From NCBI GenBank assembly GCA_003242955.1, contig QJPH01000456.1, positions 1 to 41,817 on the forward strand: a stretch of 41,817 nucleotides of DNA, in the 5' to 3' direction. This DNA is from Candidatus Methylumidiphilus alinenensis. Its GTDB lineage: Bacteria > Pseudomonadota > Gammaproteobacteria > Methylococcales > Methylococcaceae. Within the stretch, counting starts at the first letter, position 1; each line of letters begins with the position of its first letter. Positions 4,060 to 41,817 of this stretch are shown here, piece by piece. The notes below the pieces were generated by a model. That model was not told where the DNA came from. It searched no databases and saw only the letters and a program-made list of their open reading frames with translations. The position numbers and the translations under genes are program-made.

Positions 4060-4074
4060 GACTCGCAGATTCCA

Positions 4075-20669: not shown

Positions 20670-20740
20670 CCGTTCGTGGTGAGCTTGTCGAACCATGAAC
20701 GGCTAAACCGTTCACCCTTCGACAAGCTCAGGGCGAACGG
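20670..20740. repeat. Palindromic repeat between SBP56 and DUF4242
   Basis: The 23-base arms 20670-20692 and 20718-20740 are inverted copies with three mismatches, each holding GAGCTTGTCGAA or its complement. A half copy of the same word occurs near 18993-19005. It separates the DUF4242 gene from the SBP56 gene. Confidence 0.8.
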
Positions 20741-20801
20741 TTAAGCCTTTGGTATAAGTGCCCGCCTTATGTTGGTAGCCATAAACCCGAGTGACCGGGT
20801 A

Positions 20802-25844: not shown

Positions 25845-26819
25845 ATGGCGATTCCTATGATTGGCTCATCTGATATTTTTCACGGCAAGATTCTGATTGT
25901 TGACGATCTGGAGGCTAATATTCAGCTTCTCGAGCGAATGCTGCATGGTGCCGGCTATGATTCCATCTCGTCTACGACGGATCCCCGCGAAACCTACGAA
26001 CTCCACCTGAAGAACCGCTACGACTTGATCCTGCTTGATCTTCAGATGCCCGTGATGAATGGGTTCGAGGTAATGGAGGGGCTCAAGGCAATTGACCCTG
26101 ACGACTACCTCCCCGTGCTTGTCATCACCGCGCAACCGGGCCACAAGCTGCGTGCGCTACAGGGCGGCGCGAAGGATTTCATCAGCAAGCCATTCGATTT
26201 GGCCGAGGTGTTGATGCGGGTTCACAACATGCTGGAAGTCCGCCTGTTGCACCAGGCGGTCCGCGAACACGGAAAGATGCTGGAATCCCTGGCGTGGAAT
26301 GACCCGTTGACGGGGCTTGCGAACAGACGGCTTTTCGCCGAGAGAATGTCGATGGTCATTGCCCATGCGCAAAGGAAGAAGATATCCATGGCGGTGCTGT
26401 ATCTTGATCTGGACGGATTCAAGGCGATCAACGACACGTTGGGACACGGCACTGGGGATGTTCTGCTGAAAATGGTCGCGGAACGCCTGACGGCCACGGT
26501 GCGCAAAGAAGATACAGTGGCGCGCCTGGGCGGCGACGAATTCATCATCGCGCTGCCGGAGGTCGACAGTGCCGACGGTGCGGCCAAGGTGGCGTTGAAA
26601 GTGATCGCGGCGGTGTCGCAACCCTATGCCATCGGCGGCCATACGATTAACATAACCACCAGCGCGGGTGTCAGCATTTATCCCGTCAATGGCGAGGATG
26701 CGGACACGCTGATGATGAGCGCGGACTTGGCCTTGTATGAGGCCAAGTCGGCAGGCAAGAATACCTGCCGAATCTCCAAGCGCACAGACTGGGCATCCTT
26801 TATTCGTTATAGGGAATGA
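25845..26819 (+). CDS. Response regulator with GGDEF diguanylate cyclase domain
   Basis: A 324-residue protein: receiver domain (about 13-130) with V-D-D-L-E-A-N, Asp65 in L-L-D-L-Q-M-P and the K-P-F motif, then a GGDEF domain (about 150-312) with D-P-L-T-G-L-A-N-R-R and R-L-G-G-D-E-F (G-G-D-E-F at 229-233). The intact active site means it should make cyclic di-GMP. The R-K-E-D inhibitory site lies exactly five residues before GGDEF, so product inhibition is expected. It follows the hybrid kinase by 3 bases and is probably its target. Its 3' end overlaps the convergent CZB-CBS gene by 20 bases. Confidence 0.94.
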   Translation: MAIPMIGSSDIFHGKILIVDDLEANIQLLERMLHGAGYDSISSTTDPRETYELHLKNRYDLILLDLQMPVMNGFEVMEGLKAIDPDDYLPVLVITAQPGHKLRALQGGAKDFISKPFDLAEVLMRVHNMLEVRLLHQAVREHGKMLESLAWNDPLTGLANRRLFAERMSMVIAHAQRKKISMAVLYLDLDGFKAINDTLGHGTGDVLLKMVAERLTATVRKEDTVARLGGDEFIIALPEVDSADGAAKVALKVIAAVSQPYAIGGHTINITTSAGVSIYPVNGEDADTLMMSADLALYEAKSAGKNTCRISKRTDWASFIRYRE

Positions 26820-27573
26820 ATTTTTTGATAATGTCGCCGATGCTGATGATGCCGACCAGTCTTCCGTCTTTTATGACAGGCAAATGGCGTGTCCGGGTGC
26901 TGGTCATCAAGACCATGCACTGGCTTATGGAGTCATCACATTGCACGAAAATGGTATTCGTGTCAGTCATGTCGGCGACTGTAATATCCAAAGTTGTCAA
27001 GCTCTTGATCGCTATATGTTGCATAAACCCGTGGTCGGTGAAAATCCCTAAGAATTCGCCGTTTTTATACACGGCCAAAGATCCGATGTTATGTTTCACC
27101 ATCAGTTTGATGGCATCCAATACCGGGGTATCGCTGTTCACCGAAAATACGGTTTGGTTGGTCTTGGCTTTTAAGATGTCCTTGATTTTATCTGTGGGTT
27201 TGATACTTTTTCCCGCTGGGGAATCCACTTCCTTGCTGCACTCCATGATCGCCGCGACAAGTTTAGCCGAACTTTGCCGAAAAGCTCCGCCATGCGCCAA
27301 CATCTCCCTGGCTTTGGCGGTTTCGCCAGCGTTGATGTGTTCCGCTAATTCAGCCGAAACGCGGTGGAATTCTTCGTGTTCGGCACGCATGGGTTCAAAG
27401 GATGGCAAATAGGCATAGTGGATACCCTTGCCATTAATCCACCGGCCTAGTTCGCAAAGGTGGGAACTCTGTATCGCCTTGGCATCATCTATAGCCATTC
27501 CTTCGTTGAAATGTTTTATCAGTGTCAGTTTCCATTCGGCATGTGTTTCAATTGCTTCATTAAAGATACTCAT
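26800..27573 (-). CDS. CZB zinc-binding domain plus CBS-pair protein
   Basis: A 257-residue soluble protein. Residues 5-115 form a CZB domain with the expected zinc ligands: H-A-E-W-K-L-T-L near residue 11, C-E-L-G-R-W-I near 40 and H-E-E-F-H near 66. Residues 125-255 are two CBS motifs (S-D-T-P-V-L-D-A-I-K-L-M and C-D-D-S-I-S-Q-C-M-V-L-M, each ending G-x-L-x-G-I), which usually bind adenine nucleotides. CZB domains sense zinc or oxidants in chemoreceptors and cyclases; here the output would be the CBS pair. A composite palindromic element 106 bases upstream is shared with the 4-hydroxybutyrate/PEPCK promoter region, so expression is probably linked to that pathway. Confidence 0.88.
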   Translation of the reverse strand: MSIFNEAIETHAEWKLTLIKHFNEGMAIDDAKAIQSSHLCELGRWINGKGIHYAYLPSFEPMRAEHEEFHRVSAELAEHINAGETAKAREMLAHGGAFRQSSAKLVAAIMECSKEVDSPAGKSIKPTDKIKDILKAKTNQTVFSVNSDTPVLDAIKLMVKHNIGSLAVYKNGEFLGIFTDHGFMQHIAIKSLTTLDITVADMTDTNTIFVQCDDSISQCMVLMTSTRTRHLPVIKDGRLVGIISIGDIIKKFIPYNE

Positions 27574-27980: not shown

Positions 27981-28859
27981 TTACTTACCTTGCCCCAAGC
28001 TCTCCACCATCGCCTTGCCCATTTTCGACGGGGAATCGACGATGGACACGCCAGCGGCTTTCATCGCGGCAAATTTGGCGGCTGCGGTGCCTTTGCCGCC
28101 GCTGACGATGGCTCCGGCATGGCCCATGCGCTTGCCGGGGGGTGCGGTGGTGCCGGCGATGTAACCGACGACGGGCTTGGTGACATGGGCTTGGATGTAT
28201 TCCGCCGCCTCTTCCTCGGCACTGCCGCCTATTTCGCCGACCATGATGACGCCCTTGGTCTGCGGGTCGTTCTGGAACATTTCCAATACTTCGATGAAGT
28301 CCAGACCGTGAATCGGGTCGCCGCCGATGCCTACGCAGGTGCTTTGGCCCAAACCTGCAAGGGTAGTTTGGTGGACCGCCTCATAGGTCAGTGTGCCGGA
28401 GCGGGACACGATGCCAATGCTCCCTGGGTTGTGGATGAAACCGGGCATGATGCCGATCTTGCATTCGCCGGGGGTGATGACACCCGGGCAGTTGGGTCCG
28501 ACCAGTAAGGCATCGTAGGTTTTCAAAGCGGCTTTGACGCGCAACATTTGCAGCACCGGTATGCCTTCGGTGATGCAGACGATGAGCTTGATGCCCGCAT
28601 CGGCGGCTTCAAGGATGGCATCGGCGGCGAAGGGCGGCGGCACATAAATCATGCTGGCGGTCGCACCGGTCGCATCGACCGCTTGCCGCATGGTGTTGAA
28701 TACAGGAAGTCCCAAATGGGTTTGCCCGCCACGTCCCGGCGTGACTCCGCCGACGAGCTGAGTTCCGTAGGCCAAGGCTTGTTCGGCGTGGAAAGTGGCC
28801 TGCTTGCCGGTGAAACCTTGGCACAGGAGTTTTGTGGTTTTGTCGATGAGTATGCTCAT
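27981..28859 (-). CDS. sucD: Succinate-CoA ligase alpha subunit SucD
   Basis: A 292-residue subunit with the CoA-binding Rossmann domain ([12 protein letters not shown] near residue 13) and the catalytic domain with G-H-A-G-A-I-V near residue 247 that carries the phospho-histidine. With SucC it interconverts succinate and succinyl-CoA with a nucleotide. Order on the strand is sucC, a small coiled-coil ORF, sucD. Placed with 4-hydroxybutyrate genes it probably makes succinyl-CoA for the acylating dehydrogenase at 36203; it could equally be the ordinary TCA-cycle enzyme. Confidence 0.96.
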
Positions 28860-28885
28860 GGTATAAAATATATAAGTTTAGGGGC

Positions 28886-29110
28886 TTAGGTTTCCCGAAG
28901 TTCGAGGCGACGTTCCACGCGTTCCATTCGGTCGCTAAAACGATCTATTCGGATCGATTGTTCGGCCAAGAAGACATGTTGACTGGCTAGGTCAGATTCT
29001 ATGCGCCCCAGCCGAGTTTTGATCTCTCGGATATCCTCGCGCATTTCACGCTGGTTATCCAAGAGTCTTTGCATTAGCTGCATAAGCAGTTCTAAGCTGG
29101 GTTCTGGCAT
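28886..29110 (-). CDS. Small coiled-coil protein between sucC and sucD
   Basis: A 74-residue frame, nearly all heptad-like: L-L-M-Q-L-M-Q-R-L-L-D-N-Q-R-E-M-R-E-D-I-R-E-I-K, then E-S-D-L-A and R-M-E-R-V-E-R-R-L-E-L-R. The ATG has GAGGT about 8 bases upstream and lies 101 bases after sucC; sucD starts 27 bases after its stop. It is not a normal member of suc operons. Function unknown; similar short coiled-coil frames are common in repeat-rich genomes. Confidence 0.55.
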   Translation of the reverse strand: MPEPSLELLMQLMQRLLDNQREMREDIREIKTRLGRIESDLASQHVFLAEQSIRIDRFSDRMERVERRLELRET

Positions 29111-29210
29111 GGTGTTGACCTCTTCGTTGTTTTTTCACTCATAAACAGCCAGATGCTATGATCGAAACAAGCTCGATCTTTGCCTAGGTTGTCAACGGTT
29201 GGCACGATAT

Positions 29211-30374
29211 TCACTCCTTTACCGATGCAACCACTTTCTTCGCCGCTTCGTCCAAATCTTCCGCAGGGATGATGGCAAGGCCAGACTCGGCAAGCAGTTG
29301 GCGGCCCGCTGCGGCGTTAGTGCCTTCCAAGCGCACGACCACCGGGACTTTGACATCCACTTCTTTGACTGCCGCGATGATACCCTCGGCAATCATGTCG
29401 CAACGGACGATGCCGCCAAATATATTGATCAGCACGGCCTGCACGGTGTCATCGGACAAGATCAACTTGAAGGCTTCGGTTACTTTTTCTTTAGTGGCGC
29501 CGCCGCCCACGTCAAGGAAGTTGGCAGGCTCGCCGCCATGCAGTTTGATGACATCCATCGTCGCCATGGCCAGACCGGCGCCGTTCACCATGCAGCCGAT
29601 ATTGCCGCCCAGCGTGATGTAATTCAGTCCGTGCTCGCGGGCAGCGCCTTCCTTGGCATCTTCCTGGGCCGGGTCGCGCAGCGCGGCGATGTCGGGATGG
29701 GCGAACAGGGCGTTTTCGTCAATGTTGACCTTGCCGTCCAAGGCCAGCAGACGGCCATCGGCGGTGACGATGAGGGGGTTGATTTCAATCTGGCTGGCAT
29801 CCTTGTCTAGAAAAAGCCTGTAAAGCCCTTGCATGAGTTTGGTCATCGCGTTAATTTGGTTGCCTTCCAGCCCCAAGCCAAAGGCTATTTCCCGGCATTG
29901 GTAGTCTTGCAAGCCAGCCGCGGGGTTGACTTTCTGGATAAGTATTTTTTCCGGGGTTTTCGCCGCGACTTGCTCAATGTCCACGCCACCCTCGCCAGAT
30001 GCCATGAATAGCACGCGTTCGCTGCCGCGGTCGACCAGGACACTCAGGTAAAGCTCGCGGGCGATGGGGCTGACCTCCTCCACCAGCACGGAATGCACGG
30101 GCAGTGCCACCCCGCCCGTCTGATAAGTGGCGAGGCTGGAACCCAGCATTTCACTCGCCGTTTGCTCGACGGCATCCTTGCTATCCACCAGCTTGACGCC
30201 ACCGGCCTTGCCGCGCCCACCGGCGTGAATTTGCGCCTTGACCACCCAGCGCTCGCCGCCTAGTTCATCGGCAGCGTTTCGGGCTTCCTCGGGTGTAAAG
30301 GCTGGGGTTCCAGCCGGGACTGCAACGCCATAACTGGCAAATAGGCGCTTGGCCTGATATTCGTGGAGATTCAT
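29211..30374 (-). CDS. sucC: Succinate-CoA ligase beta subunit SucC
   Basis: A 387-residue ATP-grasp subunit starting [12 protein letters not shown], as SucC does. It has [15 protein letters not shown] near residue 46, E-I-N-P-L-I-V near 197, [11 protein letters not shown] near 212, and G-G-I-V-R-C-D near 320. GAGGA lies about 5 bases before the ATG. It pairs with SucD downstream. Confidence 0.97.
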
Positions 30375-30428
30375 GGGGTTCCTCGTCTTAATTGCATATC
30401 ATAAGGCTATTGCCTTGTAGCGGGTATT

Positions 30429-30875
30429 TTAACTTAACGCTTCGGTGTCTGCCTTGCCAGGTACCATCATAGTGGCCTCTCCCACCAGCACCGTTGTGTC
30501 CTTGACGGATGCAACCGTATCCAGCACGACGCGTTTTTTTTCGGGGAGTAACTCTTTGATGGTGACTTTAGCGTGTAGCGTGTCGCCGGCGCGCACGGGT
30601 GCCTTGAACCTCAGGGTTTGGGCCACGTACACGGCGCCTGGGCCGGGTAGCCGGTTGCCGAGAGCGGCAGATATCACGCCAGCCGACAGGATGCCATGGG
30701 CGATGCGGCCTTTGAACTGGGTCTTGGCTGCATATTCCTCGTCGAAATGCAACGCTTGGTTGTCGCCCGTCGCAGCACCAAACAGCAGTATATCCGCTTC
30801 GGTGATAGTCTTGGCAAACTCCGCAGACATGCCCACGGAAAGTTCCTCAAAGTAGTAGCCACCTGCTTTGTTCAA
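30429..30875 (-). CDS. MaoC-like (R)-specific enoyl-CoA hydratase
   Basis: A 148-residue hot-dog protein with the hydratase-2 motif G-A-A-T-G-D-N-Q-A-L-H-F-D-E-E-Y-A near residues 32-48. The catalytic Asp and His keep their 5-residue spacing, although the usual N-P of G-D-x-N-P-L-H is Q-A. F-K-G-R-I-A-H-G-I-L follows. Such enzymes turn crotonyl-CoA into (R)-3-hydroxybutyryl-CoA, the PHB precursor. That fits the neighbours: the upstream enzymes should deliver crotonyl-CoA. The start is a TTG at 30873-30875, with a strong AGGAGA 5 bases upstream; no ATG fits. Confidence 0.88.
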   Translation of the reverse strand: MNKAGGYYFEELSVGMSAEFAKTITEADILLFGAATGDNQALHFDEEYAAKTQFKGRIAHGILSAGVISAALGNRLPGPGAVYVAQTLRFKAPVRAGDTLHAKVTIKELLPEKKRVVLDTVASVKDTTVLVGEATMMVPGKADTEALS

Positions 30876-30956
30876 TTTAGTCTCCTGCTTTTAGTGAAAG
30901 TAGACGCACGTGCAAGACAATGCTGCGGCGCCGAATAGACTGTTAATGTGCTTGGT

Positions 30957-32234
30957 CTAGGTTTGTGATCTCAACGTGTTTCGGAAATCAGGGTGTGCGA
31001 TGCCGATCAGCGACTCGGCCCGCTGCCTGAGGCTTTTGCCTCGCAGGTCGGCTATCCCGAATTCGGTCACGACATAATGCACATCGTTGCGCGAGGTGGT
31101 TACGCAAGACCCTTCGGATAGTACGTTCACAATCCGCGATATCGTGCCATTTTTGCCCGTGGAAGGAAAAGCGATGATCGCCTTTCCTCCGTTTGAGGCG
31201 CTGGCTGCGCGCACGAAATCGACTTGACCTCCCACCGCCGAAAACTGCCTAGGGCCGATCATCTCCGAACACACCTGCCCCCTAAGATCAACCTCCAAGG
31301 CTGAATTGATTGCGACCAAGTTCTCCACTCGGCCTGCGACTAGCAGGTTGTTGGTGTAATCTACAGACCGCATGTCGATGCTCGGATTGTCATGCGCGAA
31401 ATCGTAAAGCCTTTGGGTCCCCATCAGGAATGTCGCGGTGAACTTGCCGGGGTTGATGTTGTTGTAGCGGTTGGTGATAACGCCCTGCTCGAAAAGTTCG
31501 ACGACACCGTCGGAGAACATCTCCGTATGGATGCCCAAATCTTGCTTGCCGCCTAGGAACTTGAGCACGGCATCGGGGATGGCCCCGATGCCTAGTTGGA
31601 GCGTCGCCCTGTCCGGGATCAGCGAGGCGATGTGGGCGCCGATCTTTTCCTCCACCTCGCTGATTGTGGGCAGGGGTATCTCCGGGATGGGGTGGTCCAC
31701 CTCGACGAAGGCGTCCACCTCGGAAACATGGATGCAGTTGCCGTGGGTTCGGGGCATCTGCGGATTGATCTCGGCGATGGTGAATTTAGCCGACTGCGCG
31801 GCTTGTTGGGTGTAGTCCACCGACACCCCGAAGCTCATAAACCCGTGGCTGTCTGGCGGCGACAGTTGGATCAGTGCCACGTCAACCGGGAGAATGTTGT
31901 CGCGGAACAGACGCGGTATCTCAGAGAAATAGCAAGGTGTGTAGTCGGCGCGCCCGGAATTCACCGCCTCGCGGCTTGTCGGGCCGACGAACAGGGCGTT
32001 GTGCCGGAAATTCTGGCGGTATTGGGGTTTGGTGTATTCGCAGGCGTACAAGGAGACCATGTGGACGATTTCCACGCCGGTCAGCCTGTCTGCCTGCCGC
32101 ACCAATTCTTCCACTAGCACTTTCGGCTCGCCGGCGGCGTGGCCTAGCACAACCCTGTCGCCAGACCGAACCGCTGCAAGTGCCTGGGCGGCACCTACGC
32201 ATTTTCCTCTGAATGTTTCTTGCCAAGTAGCCAT
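30957..32234 (-). CDS. 4-hydroxybutyrate CoA-transferase (acetyl-CoA hydrolase/transferase family)
   Basis: A 425-residue CoA-transferase of the Cat1/Cat2/AbfT family. It has the substrate segment G-I-G-A-I-P-D-A-V near residue 217 and the active-site glutamate in G-I-H-T-E-M-F-S-D-G near residue 238. It should move CoA from acetyl-CoA (or another acyl-CoA) to 4-hydroxybutyrate. The substrate call rests on context: its ATG overlaps the TAA of the 4-hydroxybutyryl-CoA dehydratase gene by one base (TAATG). Acetate or butyrate as main substrate cannot be excluded. Confidence 0.85.
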   Translation of the reverse strand: MATWQETFRGKCVGAAQALAAVRSGDRVVLGHAAGEPKVLVEELVRQADRLTGVEIVHMVSLYACEYTKPQYRQNFRHNALFVGPTSREAVNSGRADYTPCYFSEIPRLFRDNILPVDVALIQLSPPDSHGFMSFGVSVDYTQQAAQSAKFTIAEINPQMPRTHGNCIHVSEVDAFVEVDHPIPEIPLPTISEVEEKIGAHIASLIPDRATLQLGIGAIPDAVLKFLGGKQDLGIHTEMFSDGVVELFEQGVITNRYNNINPGKFTATFLMGTQRLYDFAHDNPSIDMRSVDYTNNLLVAGRVENLVAINSALEVDLRGQVCSEMIGPRQFSAVGGQVDFVRAASASNGGKAIIAFPSTGKNGTISRIVNVLSEGSCVTTSRNDVHYVVTEFGIADLRGKSLRQRAESLIGIAHPDFRNTLRSQT

Positions 32235-33682
32235 TAGACTTCTATTCGTGCAATGCGCTTTGCCAAGTCCTTCTTCTTGCCGATATCGGCGAGTCTGGCG
32301 ATCATGATACGCTGTGCTTGGGGCGATCCGGCCCCGTGCATGGATTCGGTCAGGTAGCCAACGGCGGCGCGCCCTAGGGTGAGGTTTTCAATCAGGCGCA
32401 GCAGTTTGAAGCGGTTGATCGCCGTGCCGTCTCCGGCACCATTGAGGTAAAGCTCGATATACTTCTGCGTTTCAGGGTTGTCGAATTCCTTCGCCCCCGG
32501 CATTGTCACCATCAAGCCTCCCGCAATGTCCTGCAACAGGCGGGCGATTTCGTAGGGGAAGCGGGTCACGTTGTGCTTGGCGACGTTGGCGAGCAGGAGG
32601 TCCACCAAGAAATTGCCGGCCGGAGTTTCAGTGCCCTTGTAGCAGCAGGCGACGCAGCTCGACCAGATGGTTTCGTTCAGGTGGATCATTTCCACGATCT
32701 TGTCCTTGACATGGCTGGCCTTGGCGGTGCCGTTGTAGTCGGCGATTAGCGCTGCCGCGCCGATGGCCACGTCCCCGACACCCGTCTTGCAGGCATAGCT
32801 GGAGCGGTGATAGCCGGCGAAGGTATCCACCAGCCGCCCGGAGAAGTCCGTCTCGCCGTCCATGAAGATGCGCTCGCGGGGGACGAACACGTCATCAAAA
32901 ACGATGATGCATTCCTGTCCACCGTAGATGCTGCCGATGTCCAAACTCTCGCCCGGCGGGTCTTCGGTCAGGCGGGTGTCGCAAGTCTGGCGGCCGTAAA
33001 TGTAGATGATGCCATCGGCATCGGCTGGGATTGCACAGCAAATGGCGAAATCACGCTCGTCTTCCTTCAAAGCGAGGGTAGGCATGACCATGATCTCATG
33101 TGAGTTGATCGCGCCGGTTTGATGCATCTTGGCACCGCGGATCACCACACCGTCGGGTGTCCGTTCCACGACGCGGACATAGGCATCCGGTTGTTGCGAC
33201 GGGCGTAGCGAACGGTCGATCTTCGGGTCAGTCATGGCCCCGTCTACCACCCAGTCATTTTCTTCGGCGATTTTCAGGTAGTTGACGAAGCGCTTGTGGT
33301 AGTCGGTGCCATAATGCTGATCTATTTCAAACGAGGTGATGTTCGTGGCGTTGAAAGCGTCCATGCCGACGCAACGCTGGAAGCAAGTTCCACACTTCTG
33401 CCCCAGCAGGCGCTGCATCCCGACTTTTTGGTACAAATCCTCCGGGCTGTTGTGCAGATGGCAAAAGCGGTTGATCGTTTTCCCGGTCAACGCGCTAGTC
33501 GCCGTCAGGGTGCTGCGGTACTTGGGGTCTTCCGCTAGCTCGTAGGTCAAGGCAATGGAATTGATGGAGGCGGCGACGACCGGGTGTTCGGTCGGCTCCC
33601 CCGTCATGCGTTCGCCATTCATGAACACTACTAGAGGTTTTCGAGCCTTCAGGCTTTGCCTGTATTCAGAACCTGTCATCAT
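32234..33682 (-). CDS. abfD: 4-hydroxybutyryl-CoA dehydratase / vinylacetyl-CoA isomerase
   Basis: A 482-residue FAD and [4Fe-4S] enzyme that dehydrates 4-hydroxybutyryl-CoA to crotonyl-CoA. C-G-T-C-F-Q-R-C gives the C-x3-C pair (Cys99 and Cys103 when numbered from the second Met, as remembered for the Clostridium enzyme). G-Y-H-R-S-S-Y-A-C-K-T-G-V-G-D near residue 290 supplies the His and third Cys. The His-Cys spacing is 6 here, while I recall 7 (292, 299) in Clostridium; an alignment should settle this. The start at 33682 (M-M-T-G-S-E-Y-R-Q-S-L) matches family N-termini and has AGGAG 10 bases ahead; an upstream in-frame ATG at 33739 would add 19 residues. First gene of the minus-strand operon. 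Confidence 0.92.
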   Translation of the reverse strand: MMTGSEYRQSLKARKPLVVFMNGERMTGEPTEHPVVAASINSIALTYELAEDPKYRSTLTATSALTGKTINRFCHLHNSPEDLYQKVGMQRLLGQKCGTCFQRCVGMDAFNATNITSFEIDQHYGTDYHKRFVNYLKIAEENDWVVDGAMTDPKIDRSLRPSQQPDAYVRVVERTPDGVVIRGAKMHQTGAINSHEIMVMPTLALKEDERDFAICCAIPADADGIIYIYGRQTCDTRLTEDPPGESLDIGSIYGGQECIIVFDDVFVPRERIFMDGETDFSGRLVDTFAGYHRSSYACKTGVGDVAIGAAALIADYNGTAKASHVKDKIVEMIHLNETIWSSCVACCYKGTETPAGNFLVDLLLANVAKHNVTRFPYEIARLLQDIAGGLMVTMPGAKEFDNPETQKYIELYLNGAGDGTAINRFKLLRLIENLTLGRAAVGYLTESMHGAGSPQAQRIMIARLADIGKKKDLAKRIARIEV

Positions 33683-33913
33683 GGTATTGGTACTCCTCTG
33701 CGTTTCGGATATGTTAAGAATGTCTTGTTCATTGTACAATGATTACACAATCAAGTTCCTAGAATCTATATTGAGTCTAGTACTTAATAGGAAACTATAT
33801 ATTTTAAATGCTATTTTCCCTTGCAAAGCCATTTCAGAGCATCCAGTTTTTATGGGATGAATGAACGCTTATATAGAATGATGGTAATTTTAGGGATAAA
33901 TCTAATCATGTCA

Positions 33914-33952
33914 ATGGGTAATTCTACCTATATTCATACGCATATCTGCGTA
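33914..33952 (+). promoter_or_regulatory. Composite two-palindrome regulatory element, copy 2
   Basis: ATGGGTAATTCTACCTAT (33914-33931, one mismatch) and TACGCATATCTGCGTA (33937-33952, perfect 6-base arms), 5 bases apart. It is the inverted copy of the element at 27679-27717 and has the same orientation relative to the PEPCK gene (143 bases downstream) as the other has to the CZB-CBS gene. It lies between the divergent dehydratase and PEPCK operons, in a 400-base gap (33683-34095) that has no gene. The arms resemble binding sites of NarL/FixJ-type regulators (TACCCAT fits TACYYMT), but the arrangement is not that of known NarL sites. Confidence 0.75.
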
Positions 33953-34095
33953 AATGCCTACGAGAAATCACGCCTATACATCCTCCTTTTTTTAGCCTAA
34001 AGTTTACAACATAATTCAACCTTGAAATTCCCATCAATTTGTACAGAATAAACAAACTAAGATGGGAAGTTAATGACATAGGCTCAGCTTAGAAT

Positions 34096-36024
34096 ATGAA
34101 AATCGAATCGTATAACCTCAAAACCACTGCCGACGAAGCGTTGCAAAATCGAGATGACATGAATGTGATGTCAAGCAGGAGTGATAGTTTGCCTGCCACG
34201 GTTATCAGCGGCGGCACCCATCCATCGTCCCATGCCAGGCTCGTTGCATGGGTGGACGACATTGTGTCCCTTTGCCAGCCAGACCAAGTGCATTGGTGCG
34301 ATGGATCTCAGGATGAATATGACCGCCTCTGTGCGGAAATGGTGGCTACCGGCACTTTCATCCGACTCAACCCGGAGAAACGGCCAAACAGTTACCTCGC
34401 TTGCTCTGATCCTTCGGACGTGGCTCGGGTCGAAGACCGCACTTTCATCTGTAGTGAGCATGAGGAAGATGCCGGCCCGACTAACCATTGGGAGGATCCG
34501 GTCAAAATGAAAGCCACGCTCAGGCAGTTCTTTCAGGGGTGCATGCGAGGGCGCACACTGTACGTTGTGCCTTTCTCTATGGGTCCGATAGGTTCGCCAA
34601 TCTCTCACCTCGGAGTGGAACTGACCGATTCGCCTTATGTGGTCGTCAACATGCGCATAATGACCCGCATGGGTTGCGCTGTGCTGGAACATCTGGGCAG
34701 CGACGGCGACTTCGTGCCTTGCCTGCATTCTGTGGGAAAACCGCTGCAACCCGGTGAACGGGATGTCGCCTGGCCCTGCAATAAGGAACACAAATATATC
34801 GTTCACTTCCCCGAGACGCGTGAGATTTGGTCCTTCGGTTCGGGTTACGGTGGTAACGCCTTGCTGGGCAAGAAGTGTTTTGCCCTGCGCATTGCTTCTA
34901 GCATGGCCCGTAAGGAAGGGTGGCTGGCCGAGCACATGCTCATTCTGGGTGTCGAGTCGCCCCTAGGCGAGAAAACCTATATTGCCGCAGCCTTTCCCAG
35001 CGCTTGTGGCAAGACTAACCTCGCCATGCTGGTTCCGCCGGCAGGATTCGATGGGTGGAAAATCACCACAATCGGGGATGATATCGCTTGGATCAAGCCC
35101 GGAAAGGACGGACGTCTGTATGCGATCAACCCGGAGGCAGGGTTTTTCGGCGTGGCACCGGGGACTTCCGAACGTTCCAACCCAAATGCGATGGCCACGC
35201 TGCATGCAAACTGCATCTTCACCAATGTCGCGCTAACCCCGGAGGGTGACATTTGGTGGGAGGGCATGACTGATGAACCTCCTGCGAAGCTGACCGACTG
35301 GCAGGGCAAAGAGTGGACACCTCAGATCGCGAAAGAAACCGGAAGAAAAAGCTCCCATCCCAACTCCCGATTCACGGCACCTCTCACACAGTGTCCTTCG
35401 CTCGATCCAGCATCTGACGATTCGGAGGGTGTGCCGATCTCAGCTTTTGTATTCGGGGGACGCCGCTGCACGACCGTCCCGCTTGTATTCGAGGCCTTCA
35501 ATTGGAACTATGGAGTCTATGCGGCCGCCACCCTAGGCTCGGAAACGACCGCGGCCGCGACCGGCAAGGTCGGAGAGGTCCGCCGCGATCCGATGGGCAT
35601 GTTGCCCTTCTGTGGCTATCACATGGGGGATTATTTCAACCACTGGTTGCAGATGGGGCACACGATCGAGAGCCCACCCCACATTTTTTGCGTGAATTGG
35701 TTCCGCTTGGATAAGGACGGCAACTTCCTGTGGCCTGGTTTCGGGGAAAACATGCGCGTGTTGAAATGGATTGTCGAGCGTGTCCATGGGCGCATCGGCG
35801 CCCGTCAAGCACCACTCGGTTGGATGCCCCGCTACGAAGACATCGACTGGAATGGCTTGCCTTCCATCTCCAAGGAACGCTTTCAAACACTCATGTCTGT
35901 GGACACGGAAATGTGGCGGGAGGAACTTGAGTTACACGGTGAACTCTTTGAAAAGCTTAAGGAGCGCCTTCCTAGGGAAGTGGTGCTGAAGCGGGAATTG
36001 TTCAAGATGGCCCTTTGGCGTTAG
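34096..36024 (+). CDS. pckG: Phosphoenolpyruvate carboxykinase (GTP)
   Basis: A 642-residue GTP-type PEPCK, slightly longer than usual because of an N-terminal extension of about 40 residues. Seen: W-C-D-G-S near residue 74, the substrate loop [13 protein letters not shown] near 253, the P-loop F-P-S-A-C-G-K-T-N near 300, G-D-D-I-A-W near 330 with metal-binding Asp, and F-G-E-N-M-R near 545. It interconverts oxaloacetate and PEP with GTP/GDP. Beside fumarate reductase and 4-hydroxybutyrate genes the PEP-carboxylating direction is attractive, as in succinate fermenters. Later Mets at 34159 and 34168 are alternative starts. Confidence 0.94.
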
Positions 36025-36055
36025 CGACAATGGCGATGTATGCGTTCAATCCCAT

Positions 36056-36109
36056 TGGGAGCGGGGTGTCTTGCCCGCAGAAATGGCGGCCAAGATGGCC
36101 GCGCTCCCA
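36056..36109. repeat. 54-bp palindromic repeat after pckG, copy 2
   Basis: TGGGAGC at the left end pairs with GCTCCCA at the right end, and GGCGGCCAAGATGGCCGC lies inside. It is the reverse-complement relative of the repeat at 27912-27964. It begins 32 bases past the pckG stop, in the 178-base gap before the next gene. Confidence 0.8.
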
Positions 36110-36202
36110 GGGAAAGGCAGGGGGAGTGAACGCTTACATGGCGATAAGCACCTCATTTAGATTTTTTGATTATATACAAGAAGAAAGTATTGAGTTATTG
36201 AC

Positions 36203-37567
36203 ATGACTACATTGATACCGGGAACAATTCAAATAGCACTTGAAAAAGCAAGAATCGCGCAAGCGGCATTTGAGTGCTATAACCAGGAACAGGTCGATGC
36301 GATCGTCAAGGCGATTGCCAAAACCGTCTATGACAATGCAGAGTCCCTGGCCAAATTGGCTTTGGATGAGACAGGGATGGGGGTTTATGAGGACAAGGTT
36401 GCGAAGAACAAGGGGAAGTCCCAAGTTATCTGGCAACATCTTAAAAACAAGAAATCAGTCGGGATTATTGATCGCAACGAGCAGACCGGGATTATCTCCA
36501 TAGCCAAGCCGATGGGTGTTGTAGGTTCGGTCACGCCGGTCACCAATCCCACTGTCACCCCGATGAGTAATGCAATGTTCGCACTCAAGGGCCGCAACGC
36601 AATCATCGTAGCACCCCACCCAAAGGCGAAACAGGCTAGCACCAAAGCCGTCGAATTGATCAACGAGTCCATCCGCGCACTAGGCGCACCGGAGAACCTG
36701 ATCCAAATTCTTGATGTGTGTTCCACTGAACTAACCATAGCCCTGATGCAAGCCGTTGATGTGGTAGTGGCGACCGGCGGCGGGGCCATGGTCAAATCTG
36801 CCTACAGCAGCGGCAAACCTGCCTACGGTGTCGGGCCCGGCAATGTCCAGGTTATTCTGGACCGGGGCATCGACTTTGACGATGCGGCCAAAAAGATTGT
36901 TTTGGGCCGTAAGTTCGACAACGGAATCATTTGTTCCGGCGAGCAAGCCGTCATTTTCCATGAAGATGACCGGGATGCCGTCATCAAAGCACTCGTCGAA
37001 AACGGTGCGTATTACGTCACCAATCCAGCCGATGCCGATGCCCTTCGGGCCACCGTGTTCAAAGAAGGTCATCTGAACAAAGATGTCGTCGGGCAGTCCG
37101 TCGCCAAAATAGCGGACATGGCAGGGGTAAAGGTCACGGGCGACGCCAAGGTGATTTTCATCCCGTCCACCGGTGCGCCGGATGATGTGCTGCGCTATGA
37201 AAAAATGTGCCCCGTCATAACCAGTTTCACCTACAAAAACCTTGATGAAGCCATCGCCATTGCCAACTTCAACTTATCGCTTGAGGGGAAAGGCCATAGT
37301 TGTGCGGTGCATTCCGTCAACCAGGAAAACATTGAAGCCATCGCCCTAGGTGTTTATACCAGCCGGGTTGTCGTCAACCAACCCAGTTCACTGTCGGCCG
37401 GCGGGAGCTATTACAACGGGTTCGCACCCACCACCACGTTGGGTTGCGGTTCCTGGGGCAACAATAGCATCTCAGAAAACCTGGATTACAAGCATCTGAT
37501 CAATATTCAGCGCATTGGCATGCCAATCAATTTCACTCCTCCTAGCTACGACGAGTTGTGGTCATAG
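36203..37567 (+). CDS. CoA-acylating succinate-semialdehyde dehydrogenase
   Basis: A 454-residue aldehyde dehydrogenase of the acylating EutE/PduP/SucD(Clostridium) branch. It has P-V-T-N-P-T-V-T-P near residue 113, A-T-G-G-G-A-M-V near 190, the catalytic Cys244 in G-I-I-C-S-G-E-Q and the C-terminal T-T-L-G-C-G-S-W-G-N-N-S-I-S-E-N-L. Length and ends match the C. kluyveri succinate-semialdehyde dehydrogenase. It should reduce succinyl-CoA to succinate semialdehyde. Specificity is inferred from the neighbours; acetaldehyde or propionaldehyde are the alternatives. Confidence 0.87.
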   Translation: MTTLIPGTIQIALEKARIAQAAFECYNQEQVDAIVKAIAKTVYDNAESLAKLALDETGMGVYEDKVAKNKGKSQVIWQHLKNKKSVGIIDRNEQTGIISIAKPMGVVGSVTPVTNPTVTPMSNAMFALKGRNAIIVAPHPKAKQASTKAVELINESIRALGAPENLIQILDVCSTELTIALMQAVDVVVATGGGAMVKSAYSSGKPAYGVGPGNVQVILDRGIDFDDAAKKIVLGRKFDNGIICSGEQAVIFHEDDRDAVIKALVENGAYYVTNPADADALRATVFKEGHLNKDVVGQSVAKIADMAGVKVTGDAKVIFIPSTGAPDDVLRYEKMCPVITSFTYKNLDEAIAIANFNLSLEGKGHSCAVHSVNQENIEAIALGVYTSRVVVNQPSSLSAGGSYYNGFAPTTTLGCGSWGNNSISENLDYKHLINIQRIGMPINFTPPSYDELWS

Positions 37568-37604
37568 TCTAGGTTGCCCCAAACATACGTGACAGGTGGA
37601 TAAA

Positions 37605-38744
37605 ATGATGAAATTGTTACCCGTGCCGGAAATTCTGATCGGAGAGTCCTCACTCGAAAAAACGGTTTCGATTCTTGACCGGCTAAAGGCTGGCAAGGTA
37701 CTGGTTGTAACCGATTCGGGCATTGTCAAAGCAGGCATCTATGATCAACTGAAAACGCTGCTGGAAGCGGCAGGCAAAACCATTGTCCTGTTCGACAGGG
37801 TTCAGCCTGACCCGGAAATCAACCTCGTGCGGGAGGCCGTCGAGTTGGCTAGAGAGGCGGGGGTCGATGCTGTGATCGGGCTTGGCGGCGGAAGTTCGTT
37901 GGACACTGCCAAGGTGGCGGCGGCTCTCGTCACTAATCCTAAGGATATCAATGCCTATATTGGGGTGGACCTCTTAGAGAAAGACGCACTGCCCACCATT
38001 GCCATACCCACCACCGCCGGGACGGGTAGCGAGGTCACCCACATCGCCATTTTGTCGGATGATAGCGAACAACTGAAAAAGGGGATTGTGTCCGCCAAAA
38101 TGATCCCACGGTATGCCATCCTCGACCCTAAACTGACCATTGGGCTGCCGCCCTATGCCACGGCGGTTACCGGCATGGATGCGCTGATCCACGCGTTGGA
38201 GTCATTCACCTCGATCCATGCCAATGCCTATTCAGAAGCGCTTGGGCTGAGGGCCATTGAGTTGATATCCAAAAACATACGCACAGCCTTCAGCCACGGC
38301 ACCGACCTCAAGGCCAGGGAGGCCATGCTGTTTGGGAGTTTGCTGGCCGGGATGGCGTTTGCCAATGTGGGCGTTGCGGCAGCCCATGCCTTTGCCTACC
38401 CGCTAGGAGGGATGTTTCATGTCCCGCATGGGCTTTCCACCAGCTTGATGCTGATCCCGGTCATGGCGTTCAATATGACTGGGAACGAAGGGAAATACGA
38501 AATGATGGCGCAGAGCCTCACCGGTAGAAGAGACGTGACCGCCCAAACCGCACTGGACGAAATCGAGAGACTGGTTGCGGACCTAAAGCTGCCGCGAAAC
38601 CTTGCCGGGGTGAATGTTCCCGAAAGCGCCCTTCCGATTATGGCTTTAAAAGTGATGGACGTGACGCGATTGTTGGGGAACAACCCCCGCAAAGTGACAC
38701 AGGACGATGCGCTTGCCATCTATCGGTTTGCTTATGCCAGGTGA
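37605..38744 (+). CDS. Iron-containing alcohol dehydrogenase, probable 4-hydroxybutyrate dehydrogenase
   Basis: A 379-residue group III Fe-alcohol dehydrogenase: G-L-G-G-G-S-S-L-D-T-A-K near residue 91, P-T-T-A-G-T-G-S-E-V-T near 135, metal ligands in G-M-D-A-L-I-H-A-L-E (near 190) and F-H-V-P-H-G (near 268). It should reduce succinate semialdehyde to 4-hydroxybutyrate with NAD(P)H. The ATG at 37605 is chosen because AGGTGG lies 5 bases ahead; a GTG at 37596 is part of that site. It follows the acylating dehydrogenase by 37 bases, which supports a shared pathway. Confidence 0.87.
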   Translation: MMKLLPVPEILIGESSLEKTVSILDRLKAGKVLVVTDSGIVKAGIYDQLKTLLEAAGKTIVLFDRVQPDPEINLVREAVELAREAGVDAVIGLGGGSSLDTAKVAAALVTNPKDINAYIGVDLLEKDALPTIAIPTTAGTGSEVTHIAILSDDSEQLKKGIVSAKMIPRYAILDPKLTIGLPPYATAVTGMDALIHALESFTSIHANAYSEALGLRAIELISKNIRTAFSHGTDLKAREAMLFGSLLAGMAFANVGVAAAHAFAYPLGGMFHVPHGLSTSLMLIPVMAFNMTGNEGKYEMMAQSLTGRRDVTAQTALDEIERLVADLKLPRNLAGVNVPESALPIMALKVMDVTRLLGNNPRKVTQDDALAIYRFAYAR

Positions 38745-38808
38745 GCCTTACCCAGAAAGGCGGTTGAATGTCATGTTACAGCCTTTTTTAATTTCTTTGT
38801 TTATCATT

Positions 38809-38871
38809 GGCGGCAAAGGGTTGCCGCCCTACGGCCCATGTTAAGCAGTAGGTCGGCAACTCTTTGCCGAC
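38809..38871. repeat. Palindromic repeat before frdA
   Basis: The 24-base arms 38809-38832 and 38848-38871 are inverted copies with three mismatches, holding GGCAAAG and TTGCCG words. It fills much of the gap between the alcohol dehydrogenase and frdA. Confidence 0.8.
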
Positions 38872-38973
38872 ATGGACGGACATTATGTAAGTAACAAGTT
38901 GATGTTAAGCGCTGTAGCGGGAAAATTCTCGTTTGGAACAAACTTAAAACAACGTCGGGGTTTTGCAACTAAT

Positions 38974-40737
38974 ATGGAAACGATACAGACAGACATTGCC
39001 ATCATCGGGGCAGGTGGCGCAGGACTGAGGGCCGCGATTGCCGTAGCCGAGGCCGATCCGAGCCTGAAAATCGCACTCGTCTCGAAGGTTTACCCAATGC
39101 GCAGCCACACCTGCGCAGCCGAGGGGGGGGCTGCTGGCGCCATCAAGGCCGAGGATAGCCTCGAACACCATTTCAATGACACCGTGGGCGGTGGCGACTG
39201 GCTCAGCGACCAGGATGCAGTCGAGTATTTCGTCAAGGAGGCACCGCGCGAACTCGTCCAGCTAGAGCATTGGGGATGCCCTTGGAACCGTGAACCAGAT
39301 GGATCGGTTGCCGTGCGTCCTTTCGGAGGCATGGATATCAAACGCACCTGGTTCGCCGCCGACAAATCTGGTTTTCACATCTTGCACACGCTGTACCAGA
39401 CCTCGCTTCAGTACCCGTCGATCAAGTTCTACGACGAGTTCTACGCAACTGATTTGCTGGTTGATGACGGCCACTGCCAGGGATTGACCGCAATTGAAAT
39501 GCGCTCGGGGCGCATGCATCATTTCCGAGCGCGGGCGGTGATCATCGCCGGCGGCGGGGCGGGGCGCATGTTCCCGTTCAACACCAACGGGTCGATCAAA
39601 ACTGGCGACGGCATGGCCTTGGCCTACCGCGCAGGGGTGCCGCTCAAGGACATGGAGTTTGTCCAGTATCATCCCACGGGCCTGCCGAACACGGGAATAT
39701 TGTTGACCGAGGGATGCCGGGGCGAGGGTGGCATACTGGTCAACGCAAACGGTCGCCGTTACCTCCAAGACTACGGCTTGGGGCCAGAAACGCCAGTGGG
39801 GAAACTAGTCTTAAAGACCATGGAACTTGGCCCACGCGACCGCTTGAGCCAAGCATTCTTTCACGAACAGCAGAAAGGCAATACGGTTAAAACCCCATGG
39901 GGCGATTGTGTCTATCTCGACATGCGCCATCTGGGCGAGAAGCTTATCGACGAGCGCCTACCCTTCGTGCGCGAGTTGGCGACGAGCTACCTCGGCGTAG
40001 ACCCAGTCAAGGAAATGGTTCCCGTGCGGCCTGTGGTGCATTACATGATGGGCGGCATTCACACCGACATCCGTGCGGCGACCCCAATCGGCGGCCTGTT
40101 CGCGGCAGGCGAGTGCGCATGCGTGAGCATCAACGGCGCCAATCGGCTCGGCTCGAACTCGCTCACCGAGATACTCGTATTCGGCAAACGCGCCGCGTTG
40201 AGCGCCATCGAACATCTACAGTCGGCCACACACACAGTTAATGACGCAGCGCTCACGGCCCAGGCACAGGCAGCGCAGGACCGCATCCGAACATTGTTCC
40301 TGCGACCGGTGGGCAACGAATCAATCTCTGGCATGCGCAGGGAGATGATGGACACAATGGAACTGAATGCCGGCATCTACCGGACCGGGGAAGGACTTGC
40401 GGATGCGTCCACCAAGCTTGCCGAACTGCGCCGCCGTTACGCGGAGGGAGTTTCCCTGCACGACAAGACAAACGTCTACAACACCGATCTTTTGCAAGCG
40501 TTGGAACTCGGCTCCATGCTCGACTGCGCGGAAGCGCTGGTCGCTAGCGCATTGGCACGCAAGGAGTCGCGGGGTGCGCATCAGCGCCTCGACTTCACCG
40601 GGCGGGACGACGTGAACTATCTCAAGCACTCCCTGGCCTACTATCATCCTTCCGAACCGCCCCGTCTCGACTACAGCGCGGTGTCAATCACGAAATCACA
40701 GCCAGGCGTGCGCAACTACTCGGGGAATAAGAAATGA
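38974..40737 (+). CDS. frdA: Fumarate reductase flavoprotein subunit FrdA
   Basis: A 587-residue flavoprotein starting [19 protein letters not shown], like E. coli FrdA, with the covalent-FAD His45 in [10 protein letters not shown]. Also seen: [13 protein letters not shown], the active-site H-P-T-G-L-P and R-G-E-G-G, and [13 protein letters not shown]. It reduces fumarate to succinate at the membrane with quinol through FrdB and FrdC. The start is placed at 38974; the frame stays open upstream to 38872, but that part follows directly on a repeat and does not match FrdA. The resemblance is closer to quinol:fumarate reductase than to SdhA. Confidence 0.93.
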
Positions 40738-41477
40738 CTGAACGCAGTATTGACCTTGATGTTCTGCGCTACAACCCGGAGACCGACAGCGAGCCGTACT
40801 GGCAACGTTACTCGGTGCCCCATCACGACGAATGGGTGGTGCTCGACGCGCTCAACCACGTCAAAGACAACATAGACCCCACACTCAACTACCGTTGGTC
40901 GTGCCACATGGCCGTCTGCGGAAGTTGCGGCATGATGATCAACGGCAAGCCCATGCTCGCATGCAAAACCTTCATGCGTGATTTCGAGAACCTTATCCGG
41001 GTTGAGCCACTCGCGCACTTCCCGATTGAGCGTGACCTCGTCACGGTCATGGACGACTTCGTATCCAAGCTCGCCCGTGTCAAACCCTATCTGATTCCTA
41101 AGCAGCACAAGCCCGTTGAAGAAGGCGAGTATCGCCAGACACCGGCCGAACTCAACCGCTTCAAGCAGTACTCGATGTGCATCAACTGCATGCTCTGCTA
41201 CTCAGCCTGCCCCGAGTACGCACTGATCCCGAAGTTCATCGGCCCGGCGGCGATCACGCTCGCGCACCGTTACAACTTGGACTCGCGCGACGGTGGTCGG
41301 GACGAGCGAGAAGAGGTGGTGGCATCCGGCGAGGGTGTCTGGGAATGTACGTTCGTCGGCGCTTGCTCCGAGGCATGCCCCAAGCATGTGGACCCGGCAG
41401 GCGCATTACAGCAAGCCAAAATAGCAAGCACCATAGACTGGTTTAAGGAGCATTTGACATCATGGCTAAACAAGTAA
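40734..41477 (+). CDS. frdB: Fumarate reductase iron-sulfur subunit FrdB
   Basis: A 247-residue subunit with all three clusters: [2Fe-2S] Cys57, 62, 65, 77; [4Fe-4S] Cys149, 152, 155 with Cys215; [3Fe-4S] Cys159, 205, 211. The first four positions are the same as in E. coli FrdB. It passes electrons from the membrane quinol to FrdA. Its ATG overlaps the TGA of frdA by 4 bases, and its 3' end overlaps frdC by 16 bases. Confidence 0.96.
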
Positions 41478-41817
41478 GCGGCAAACCCTACCTGCGCGAA
41501 GTTTCCACTACGCAGTGGTATTTGCGTAACGAAATCTACCTGCGCTACATTGCACGCGAGTTGACGTGCGTCTTCATCGGCATCTACACGGTGATACTAC
41601 TAGTGGGTATCTGGCGCCTTTCCCAGGGTCAAGTAGCCTACGAGGCTTTCCTGCAGGCACTGCGCTCGCCAATGAGCATCGTTTTTCACCTCGTGGCACT
41701 CGCTTTTTCCGTCTACCACAGTGTGACATGGTTCAATCTCACCCCAAAAGCGATGCCCATTCAGATCGGTGAACAGTTCGTCCCTGATAACGTGATCATC
41801 GGCGCTCATTACTTGGG
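41462..41817 (+). CDS. frdC: Fumarate reductase membrane subunit FrdC, cut by right edge
   Basis: 118 residues are visible, starting [13 protein letters not shown] with two membrane segments (about 32-52 and 72-92). K-P-Y-x-R near the N-terminus, W-F-N-L-T-P-K-A near 90 and the length fit FrdC, the anchor that binds quinone with FrdD. FrdC is about 130 residues, so only the end is missing; frdD should follow outside the window. Confidence 0.9.
   Translation, partial: MAKQVSGKPYLREVSTTQWYLRNEIYLRYIARELTCVFIGIYTVILLVGIWRLSQGQVAYEAFLQALRSPMSIVFHLVALAFSVYHSVTWFNLTPKAMPIQIGEQFVPDNVIIGAHYL

Follow-up and report, generated by a model that had tools for sequence, protein, structure and literature searches.

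The 41,817-nucleotide window considered here (the whole stretch of DNA that was analyzed; contig C22:1–41817 of the draft genome G000 of Candidatus Methylumidiphilus alinenensis) carries at its right end two divergent arms of genes covering a route from phosphoenolpyruvate (PEP) through succinate and 4-hydroxybutyrate (4HB) to crotonyl-CoA and 3-hydroxybutyryl-CoA. We lean towards reading them as an accessory gene set of a methanotroph which, under low-oxygen or anoxic conditions, would operate as a reductive sink converting PEP and CO2 via succinate, 4HB and crotonyl-CoA into (R)-3-hydroxybutyryl-CoA and polyhydroxybutyrate (PHB). If so, the succinate–4HB–crotonyl-CoA module of anaerobes has been placed in a gammaproteobacterial methanotroph, where it could help to balance redox and allow methane carbon to be stored as polymer with no need of O2 as a respiratory acceptor.

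The source genome (6.57 Mb, 597 contigs; estimated completeness 100%, contamination 4.4%) was compared with six sister genomes of the genus (G001–G006), giving a set of seven. The gene pmoA (PF02461) is found in three of them, including G000 and G004, and in none of the other four, perhaps owing to gaps in these metagenome-assembled genomes (MAGs); on this marker the host is identified as a gammaproteobacterial methanotroph. The accessible text of PMC8397446 presents Ca. Methylumidiphilus as a lineage from stratified northern lakes.

Genes were identified by open reading frame (ORF) calling with NCBIfam, Pfam and PDB-sequence searches. All genes that an initial annotation had named between positions 27981 and 41817 were recovered, which confirms the observation itself; the interpretation attached to it is partly supported. 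The features of the locus are listed below, with scores in bits.

26800–27573 (−): CZB (chemoreceptor zinc-binding) and CBS domain protein, candidate regulator or sensor sharing the promoter element; Pfam CBS 84 bits, CZB 35 bits
27681–27720 (−): 40-bp two-palindrome element, copy 1, facing the CBS gene; 34/34 specified consensus positions
27981–28859 (−): sucD, succinyl-CoA ligase alpha subunit, core gene; NF004230 466 bits, cut-off 336
29211–30374 (−): sucC, succinyl-CoA ligase beta subunit, core gene; NF001913 583 bits, cut-off 370
30429–30875 (−): MaoC/PhaJ-like (R)-specific enoyl-CoA hydratase; PF01575 83.5 bits, PDB 5cpg 117 bits
30957–32234 (−): 4HB CoA-transferase, AbfT/Cat2 type; 3eh7 488 bits, 3gk7 463 bits
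32234–33739 (−): AbfD, predicted 4-hydroxybutyryl-CoA dehydratase/vinylacetyl-CoA isomerase; 1u8v 600 bits, iron–sulfur ligands kept
33911–33950 (+): 40-bp two-palindrome element, copy 2, in the abfD–pckG gap, facing the pckG operon; 34/34 specified consensus positions
34096–36024 (+): pckG, GTP-dependent PEP carboxykinase (PEPCK), second copy; NF003253 1010 bits, cut-off 504
36203–37567 (+): CoA-acylating succinate-semialdehyde dehydrogenase (SSADH), succinyl-CoA reductase of the Clostridium kluyveri SucD type; 8cei 535 bits
37596–38744 (+): iron-containing alcohol dehydrogenase (Fe-ADH), presumed 4HB dehydrogenase; PF00465/PF25137, substrate inferred from context
38872–40737 (+): frdA, quinol:fumarate reductase flavoprotein; NF006686 959 bits, cut-off 854, TIGR01176 946 bits, cut-off 933
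40734–41477 (+): frdB, iron–sulfur subunit; NF009051 374 bits, cut-off 333
41462–>41817 (+): frdC, membrane anchor, ending at the contig end; 118 aa, 87% identical to the G004 FrdC

The minus arm runs from abfD to sucD and the plus arm from pckG to frdC. The true FrdA start is probably at 38974, inside the first-ATG ORF, and that of AbfD probably near codon 14–20; PckG likewise seems to start inside its first-ATG ORF, at 34159 or later.

Enzyme identities along the route

Taken gene by gene, the chain from PEP to 3-hydroxybutyryl-CoA proposed in the initial annotation is supported. PEP would be carboxylated by PckG, and also by the PEP carboxylase of the genome, after which oxaloacetate would pass through malate to fumarate by presumed core enzymes; FrdABCD would reduce fumarate to succinate, and SucCD would activate the latter. 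SSADH and Fe-ADH would reduce succinyl-CoA to 4HB. Crotonyl-CoA would then arise through the CoA-transferase and AbfD, a radical dehydratase, and its hydration by MaoC would give (R)-3-hydroxybutyryl-CoA, which a class III polyhydroxyalkanoate (PHA) synthase could polymerize or which could leave the cell as 3-hydroxybutyrate. From established biochemistry we infer a balance of four reductant pairs per PEP (at malate dehydrogenase, fumarate reductase, succinyl-CoA reductase and 4HB dehydrogenase) and one CO2 taken up, with one GTP gained at PckG and one ATP spent at SucCD; electrons would thus be removed without O2. As drawn, the route is testable: each C4 unit would consume four reductant pairs and one CO2 on its way into a storage polymer.

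The HpaB-fold protein of the minus arm is identified as a 4-hydroxybutyryl-CoA dehydratase and not an oxygenase, because it scores 600 bits against PDB 1u8v and 564 bits against 6vjr, versus only 154 bits for the best HpaB oxygenase; it also falls below the HpaB-1 equivalog cut-off (163 of 480 bits). The entry 1u8v, a dehydratase/isomerase of γ-aminobutyrate (GABA) metabolism, is presumably the Clostridium aminobutyricum enzyme. Its Cys99, Cys103, His292 and Cys299, which we take to be the [4Fe-4S] ligands of 4-hydroxybutyryl-CoA dehydratase, correspond to C119, C123, H311 and C317 in the window protein, and Gln101, Arg102, Thr190, Glu257, Tyr296, Lys300 and Glu455 are also the same, so that all 11 positions compared are identical.

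Both nearest solved relatives of the CoA-transferase (3eh7 and 3gk7) are named 4HB CoA-transferase, and the protein fails the butyryl-CoA:acetate CoA-transferase model TIGR03948 (333 of 674.8 bits). The nearest PDB relative of MaoC, 5cpg, is an (R)-specific enoyl-CoA hydratase; the window protein carries D-x4-H, presumably the motif of MaoC-type hydratases.

SSADH reaches 535 bits against the C. kluyveri SucD structure 8cei, versus 328 bits against AdhE. Key residues of the C. kluyveri succinyl-CoA reductase given in the accessible text of PMC10249356 are Cys242, Lys70, Ser243, His364 and Thr365. The window protein has the equivalents Cys244, Lys72, Ser245 and His365 and also keeps the Lys66 equivalent, with Ser in place of Thr365 and of Thr395. 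Relatives within the genus are 51% (G004:C185) or 37–38% identical (G000:C3, G005 and G002); the substrate-binding Lys and Ser are present in the G004:C185 copy and absent at those columns in the G000:C3 paralogue, which best matches SauS (530 of 600 bits).

FrdA and FrdB exceed their fumarate reductase equivalog cut-offs. FrdA reads HTCAAEGG in the window and in G004, versus HTVAAQGG in the SdhA-like proteins of all four sisters compared. Glu versus Gln near the FAD-binding His is, we assume, the difference between E. coli FrdA and SdhA; a literature search for this rule found no paper. The G004 FrdC and FrdD score 91 of 143 and 79 of 60 bits. Together, FrdAB and the partial FrdC are identified as an E. 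coli-type quinol:fumarate reductase.

Several genes that could serve the ends of the route lie elsewhere in G000, of which 2.42–2.43 Mb (37% of the genome) was readable for motif and relative scans. A class III PhaC is encoded on contig C299 (TIGR01836, 492 bits, cut-off 365); PF07167 alone is weak on this protein (34 bits), and the class III model decided its identity. PF07167 is present in five of the seven genus genomes. The ORF adjoining phaC lies below the PhaE cut-off (TIGR01834, 104 of 155 bits), yet PhaE is its best and only family. A NifJ-type pyruvate:ferredoxin oxidoreductase (PFOR)/POR domain occurs in 7/7 genomes, the G000 protein scoring 1767 bits against TIGR02176 (cut-off 911), and scans of 2.42 Mb found a thiolase (462 of 241 bits) and a PEP carboxylase (891 of 815 bits). 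Thus, phaC, thiolase and PFOR, for which the initial annotation had proposed a search, were found. For phaB, the search returned a short-chain dehydrogenase/reductase (SDR) that passes a FabG-type subfamily (316 of 298 bits) and fails the PhaB cut-offs (NF042966, 147 of 436; TIGR01829, 173 of 302). G000 also encodes a NiFe hydrogenase large subunit (L220:13587–15281) with VhuA of methanogens as its best match (418 of 800 bits).

The promoter element and the history of the locus

Alignment of the regions upstream of abfD in G000 and G004 brought out the palindrome ATGGGTA-N4-TACCTAT. Across 2,462,764 bases of G000, its only two strict matches are those in the window; one mismatch adds no site, and two mismatches give 13. 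A 40-bp form, whose 34 specified consensus positions were derived from the same three copies that it scores, reaches 34 at window positions 33911 (+) and 27681 (−) and at G004 C67:3706 (L087:3706–3745); when both strands of 2,432,013 bases of G000 are scanned, the runner-up reaches 23. It occurs in none of 100 shuffles of the window, and its 37-bp core has no match in viral contigs. Pairwise, the three copies agree at 33, 36 and 33 of 40 bases. They stand 146 bp upstream of the pckG ORF, 108 bp upstream of the ATG of the CBS/CZB gene and 438 bp upstream of the G004 Fe-ADH gene (with a 95-aa ORF in between), and a TATACA hexamer follows 24, 24 and 23 bp downstream. In our reading, the element is a tandem operator that precedes a promoter. 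No FNR-type box was seen when looked for by eye in the abfD–pckG gap.

The CBS/CZB protein shares the element of the island and is a candidate regulator or sensor; a 49% paralogue is encoded on L260 of G000. We tentatively propose, as a possibility that still falls short of being probable, that this methanotroph, a member of the Methylococcaceae, has acquired a CO2-fixing electron sink, leading from PEP through fumarate reduction and 4HB to PHB, under one dedicated element and with the CBS/CZB protein in its control.

Within the genus, AbfD is restricted to G000 and G004 (two of seven genomes; 97% identical). A search of 61 genomes returned, besides these two, one 24% match (G041), by that measure no AbfD, and among 398 genomes sampled from the phylum G000 alone matched at E 1e-100. 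The island FrdA is found in the same number of genus genomes (2/7), the best matches in the other five being 45–46% (four genomes) and 37% (G006) identical. By comparison, a pckG copy 80–82% identical to that of the window occurs in six of the seven, with none in G005; G000 has two, a core-like copy on C286 and the window copy.

The G004 cluster, on a 66-kb contig, has abfD-abfT facing one way and feadh-frdA-frdB-frdC-frdD the other; abfT, abfD, feadh, frdA and frdB are 90–98% identical to their window counterparts (90% for Fe-ADH). A 95-aa ORF without a family match lies between the two arms, and the noncoding stretch ahead of abfD is conserved between G004 and the window. A single fixed island was considered and rejected, since pckG and ssadh are both absent from the G004 cluster of abfT, abfD, feadh and frdABCD.

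The sucCD pair has a different background. The gene sucD is present in 7/7 genus genomes (95–96% identical to five sisters, 84% to the sixth) and sucC is 77–91% identical in the sister stretches, so we regard sucCD as core DNA of the genus, now beside the 4HB genes; its membership in an imported module is rejected on the 84–96% sucD identity in all six sisters. In 6/6 sister stretches, an ORF of 146–191 aa starting MT(E/K)LLAVLT precedes sucC, and beyond it a divergent SDR gene and a thiolase gene are plain in G001, G002, G003 and G006, thiolase alone in G004 and neither in G005. Contig C12 of G000 holds an ORF of this type, the SDR and the thiolase (68%, 95% and 83% identical, respectively) without sucC. 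Because similarity between the window and the sisters stops at about 30431, just upstream of sucC, and the usual sucC neighbors sit on C12, sucCD seems to have moved next to maoC-abfT-abfD, giving the run abfD-abfT-maoC-sucC-sucD. The gap between sucC and sucD (window 28860–29210) contains a 74-aa ORF in G000 and G004; in G002 and G003 it holds two ORFs, of 74 and 101 aa, that look toxin–antitoxin-like by eye. A second SucD-like alpha subunit (54–55% identity), perhaps of a malate-CoA ligase, was found in all six sisters (L130 in G003, L131 in G005, L132 in G001, and in G002, G004 and G006) and by the same search not in G000.

The term divergent island, as used in the initial annotation, holds only for transcription in two arms. 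It does not extend to base composition: the GC content of the island is 0.553 against a mean of 0.520 (sd 0.029, 120 stretches) and its tetranucleotide distance lies at the 80th percentile, both within range, and a foreign base composition was rejected; sucCD, moreover, is core and not foreign.

An AbfD tree of 59 rows was built from the window and 58 of 67 loci (L019–L085). It omits L026, L056, L057, L060, L062, L081, L082, L083 and L085, which have no called frame of 400 aa (two of them Panacagrimonas), as well as L018 (a duplicate) and L086 (a short match). The AbfD rows of the window and G004 cluster with those of a Spirochaetales contig (79% identical; support 100/100) and an Opitutae MAG (61%; 100/98), away from the tree's three other Pseudomonadota. 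This placement agrees with abfD having come from anaerobes by transfer, allowing for the care that binned sequences call for. AbfD relatives also occur in other Gammaproteobacteria (Lysobacterales, Woeseiaceae, Salinisphaeraceae and Panacagrimonas). Among 72,556 plasmid records, eight carry an AbfD relative, including Bradyrhizobium and Sphingomonas; with at most 57% identity, plasmid carriage was rejected.

Flanks of 69 named abfD loci, a count that includes L018, whose DNA is that of the window, and L019, which is G004, contain a CoA-transferase relative in at least 16 cases, MaoC in at least 6, SSADH and Fe-ADH in at least 3 each, and FrdA and FrdB in at least 2 each; flanks often end at contig ends, and these counts are therefore lower bounds. 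MaoC begins 407–435 bp before abfD in four loci (three titled Syntrophomonas and one Bacillota), and in L020 a methylmalonyl-CoA mutase adjoins abfD and a short SSADH-like fragment. In the locus L081, from a Desulfovibrio bin, abfD and ssadh are preceded by genes for FrdC (156 of 187 bits), FrdA (1004 of 663) and a FrdB relative, for the two fumarase subunits (alpha, 411 of 276; beta, 247 of 238) and for a protein resembling malic enzyme (532 of 1178). It looks like the same logic assembled independently.

Direction of flux and competing readings

Fe-ADH and frdAB adjoin abfD-abfT in both abfD-bearing genomes, and the other five of the seven lack both this AbfD and this FrdA. We favor the reductive direction because FrdAB(CD) is linked in both genomes and L081 offers a parallel. 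The sink reading as a whole also draws on the diagnostic residues of AbfD and SSADH, the 40-bp element common to both genomes, the PEP carboxylase and PFOR of G000 and the low-O2 products of a Methylomicrobium culture described below. The fermentative sink ending in PHB or hydroxybutyrate, suggested in the initial annotation, is likewise strengthened by pmoA, phaC, thiolase, the FabG-like SDR and the FrdA-type Glu; its direction is inferred, and Fe-ADH stays below its cut-offs.

Several points weigh against the reductive sink. All sequences used are MAGs, and the G004 cluster lacks pckG, has ssadh unlinked and sits on a contig that starts at abfT, placing maoC beyond view. Against the 4HB dehydrogenase model NF058672, Fe-ADH scores 240.9 bits (cut-off 500), and it reaches no curated cut-off in any of the 17 families listed, so its role is assigned from context. 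MenD gave weak matches in 7/7 genus genomes and none above the cut-off, in a search that did not extend to the futalosine and rhodoquinone (RquA) routes; ubiquinol is a poor electron donor for fumarate. As to the claim that only malate dehydrogenase and fumarase are missing from the island, neither was confirmed in the 37% of the genome scanned. A malate dehydrogenase motif had no match in these 2.42 Mb, which says little at that coverage, and class I fumarase and malic enzyme, queried with the L081 proteins, had none in the same 37%. The one fumarase/aspartase protein found there exceeds only the cut-off for aspartate ammonia-lyase (521 of 510 bits), with fumC at 545 of 665. The reductive direction loses weight through the MenD result, the low-potential quinone that the host would need, a malate dehydrogenase and a fumarase that stay unconfirmed, and steps that are reversible and could run oxidatively.

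Run in reverse, the same genes would convert crotonyl-CoA, derived from PHB or acetyl-CoA, to 4HB-CoA, oxidize this by way of succinate semialdehyde to succinyl-CoA, and reach PEP via PckG, providing an anaplerotic or gluconeogenic route from stored PHB that bypasses the glyoxylate shunt. GTP-dependent PEPCK is usually gluconeogenic and AbfD is reversible; PhaC, thiolase and an SDR are present in G000, and MenD, which would serve fumarate reductase, is not found above the cut-off. All of this suits such a flux. Still, a core-like pckG is already in the genome, both genomes have their own linked FrdAB in addition to an SdhA-like protein, FrdA bears the FrdA-type Glu, and in L081 AbfD and SucD come together with Frd, fumarase and a malic-enzyme-like gene. 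We therefore consider the reverse direction unlikely, although it is the alternative we take most seriously.

Use of exogenous 4HB, or of succinate semialdehyde derived from GABA as in C. aminobutyricum, would agree with AbfD and AbfT types that belong to GABA fermentation and with the plasmid AbfD relatives in Bradyrhizobium and Sphingomonas, where a breakdown role is possible. We judge it improbable. Among the 30 window ORFs screened against Pfam or NCBIfam (10 against Pfam alone) there is no GABA transaminase, Frd, PckG and SucCD would be left without a role, and AbfD would be redundant, since the CoA-acylating SSADH would take 4HB to succinyl-CoA.

A contig joining methanotroph and anaerobe DNA by assembly or binning error is more doubtful again. 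The suspicion arises from L018, a stretch of a MAG contig titled Alphaproteobacteria (CAIUTH010000092.1, 6328–12716) that is 99.9% identical to window 28626–34952 and then turns into 65% GC DNA within sucD, and from the separation of the window sucCD from its usual neighbors. On the other side, the left part of the window has matches in 7/7 genus genomes, sucD is 84–96% identical to the sisters, G004 carries five of the genes on its own 66-kb contig, and the maoC–sucC junction recurs in L018, though perhaps from the same strain. The composition of the island is in range and that of the odd half of L018 out of range; L018 probably comes from a chimeric contig that has entered a publicly available species genome, and the alphaproteobacterial host implied by its title was rejected.

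Least credible of all is half of an autotrophic dicarboxylate/4HB cycle, the other option raised initially, which gains little from the NifJ-type PFOR (7/7), PEP carboxylase, thiolase and 4HB half that do exist, as a CoA-transferase holds the 4HB-CoA synthetase step in the cluster, PHA is the product suggested by the (R)-specific MaoC hydratase, pmoA is present in the host, five of seven genus genomes lack AbfD, and a PEP synthase/pyruvate phosphate dikinase motif had no match in 2.42 Mb (37%) of G000, a result that says little at that coverage. A RuBisCO motif had no match in the same DNA either.

Neighboring features and related systems

Further left in the window, an ABC transporter is encoded at 231–5109, a DUF3782/Card1-endonuclease-like gene with many relatives in all seven genus genomes at 18337–18876, and a Uma2-family gene at 21936–22496. 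The methanethiol oxidase MtoX (19224–20696; 782 bits, cut-off 650) is accompanied by a gene for a TetR-type regulator (21144–21740), AcuR/CurR-like and below both cut-offs. A repeat of about 166 bp at 10764–10930 has at least 17 more copies in G000, and a second repeat family (about 20634–20780) has many copies in G004 and G006.

Among known systems, the succinate-to-crotonyl-CoA pathway of C. kluyveri (SucD, 4HbD, Cat2 and AbfD) comprises the same reactions and related enzymes, including the same SSADH Lys and Ser. Here, by contrast, SucCD would activate succinate, Frd and PEPCK would be coupled to the route, an (R)-hydratase and PHA synthase would stand in place of butyrate formation, and the host is an aerobic methanotroph. 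The GABA fermentation of C. aminobutyricum uses AbfT/AbfD-type enzymes similar to those of the window, in which all cluster ligands are kept; it differs from the present locus, where entry would be at succinyl-CoA and no GABA entry gene was seen in the window. The locus L081 is alike in joining a reductive C4 branch with AbfD and SucD in one stretch; its FrdA is of another subtype (NF006383, 1004 bits; TIGR01176, 391 of 933), its gene order is different, and its ssadh ends at the contig end.

The archaeal dicarboxylate/4HB cycle of Ignicoccus, as outlined in the accessible text of PMC9802188, has PEP carboxylation, fumarate and succinyl-CoA reduction and 4HB-CoA dehydration in common with the proposed route. 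In the present case, a CoA-transferase replaces the synthetase, the hydratase is (R)-specific and the host is a methanotroph, so that the set reads as a linear sink. The same text reports gene sets of the 3-hydroxypropionate/4HB cycle in Gammaproteobacteria, namely Luminiphilus MAGs, which likewise place 4HB-CoA dehydratase in a gammaproteobacterium; these belong to another order, are proposed to form a carbon-fixation cycle and, in that portion of the paper, come with no mention of Frd/PEPCK linkage (PMC9802188).

Closer to the host, the available parts of PMC11192741 and PMC11008690 describe a Methylomicrobium culture whose fermentation products from methane carbon at low O2 include succinate and hydroxybutyrate, and they present the activity of O2-dependent methane oxidizers in anoxic lake water as an open puzzle, with fermentation-based methanotrophy as one leading idea. 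This mixed-acid fermentation is known from the same order, Methylococcales, with a gene list of mdh, fumC and sdhABCD; the present locus differs in its frd operon and in the extension from succinate to a C4-CoA. The accessible text of PMC10715148 adds excretion of succinate and malate by Methylovulum and Methylomonas strains isolated from lakes. Type I methanotrophs do not accumulate PHA, with exceptions reported, according to a review (PMC11435153); G000 encodes PhaC. The same review mentions engineering of the 4HB-forming part of the module into Methylosinus.

A literature search covering titles and abstract openings, with subscription journals mostly outside its coverage, returned no description of such a route in a methanotroph. 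AbfD by itself is not new to Gammaproteobacteria; what appears new to us is its linkage in a methanotroph to Frd, an extra PEPCK and SucCD, together with a common promoter element.

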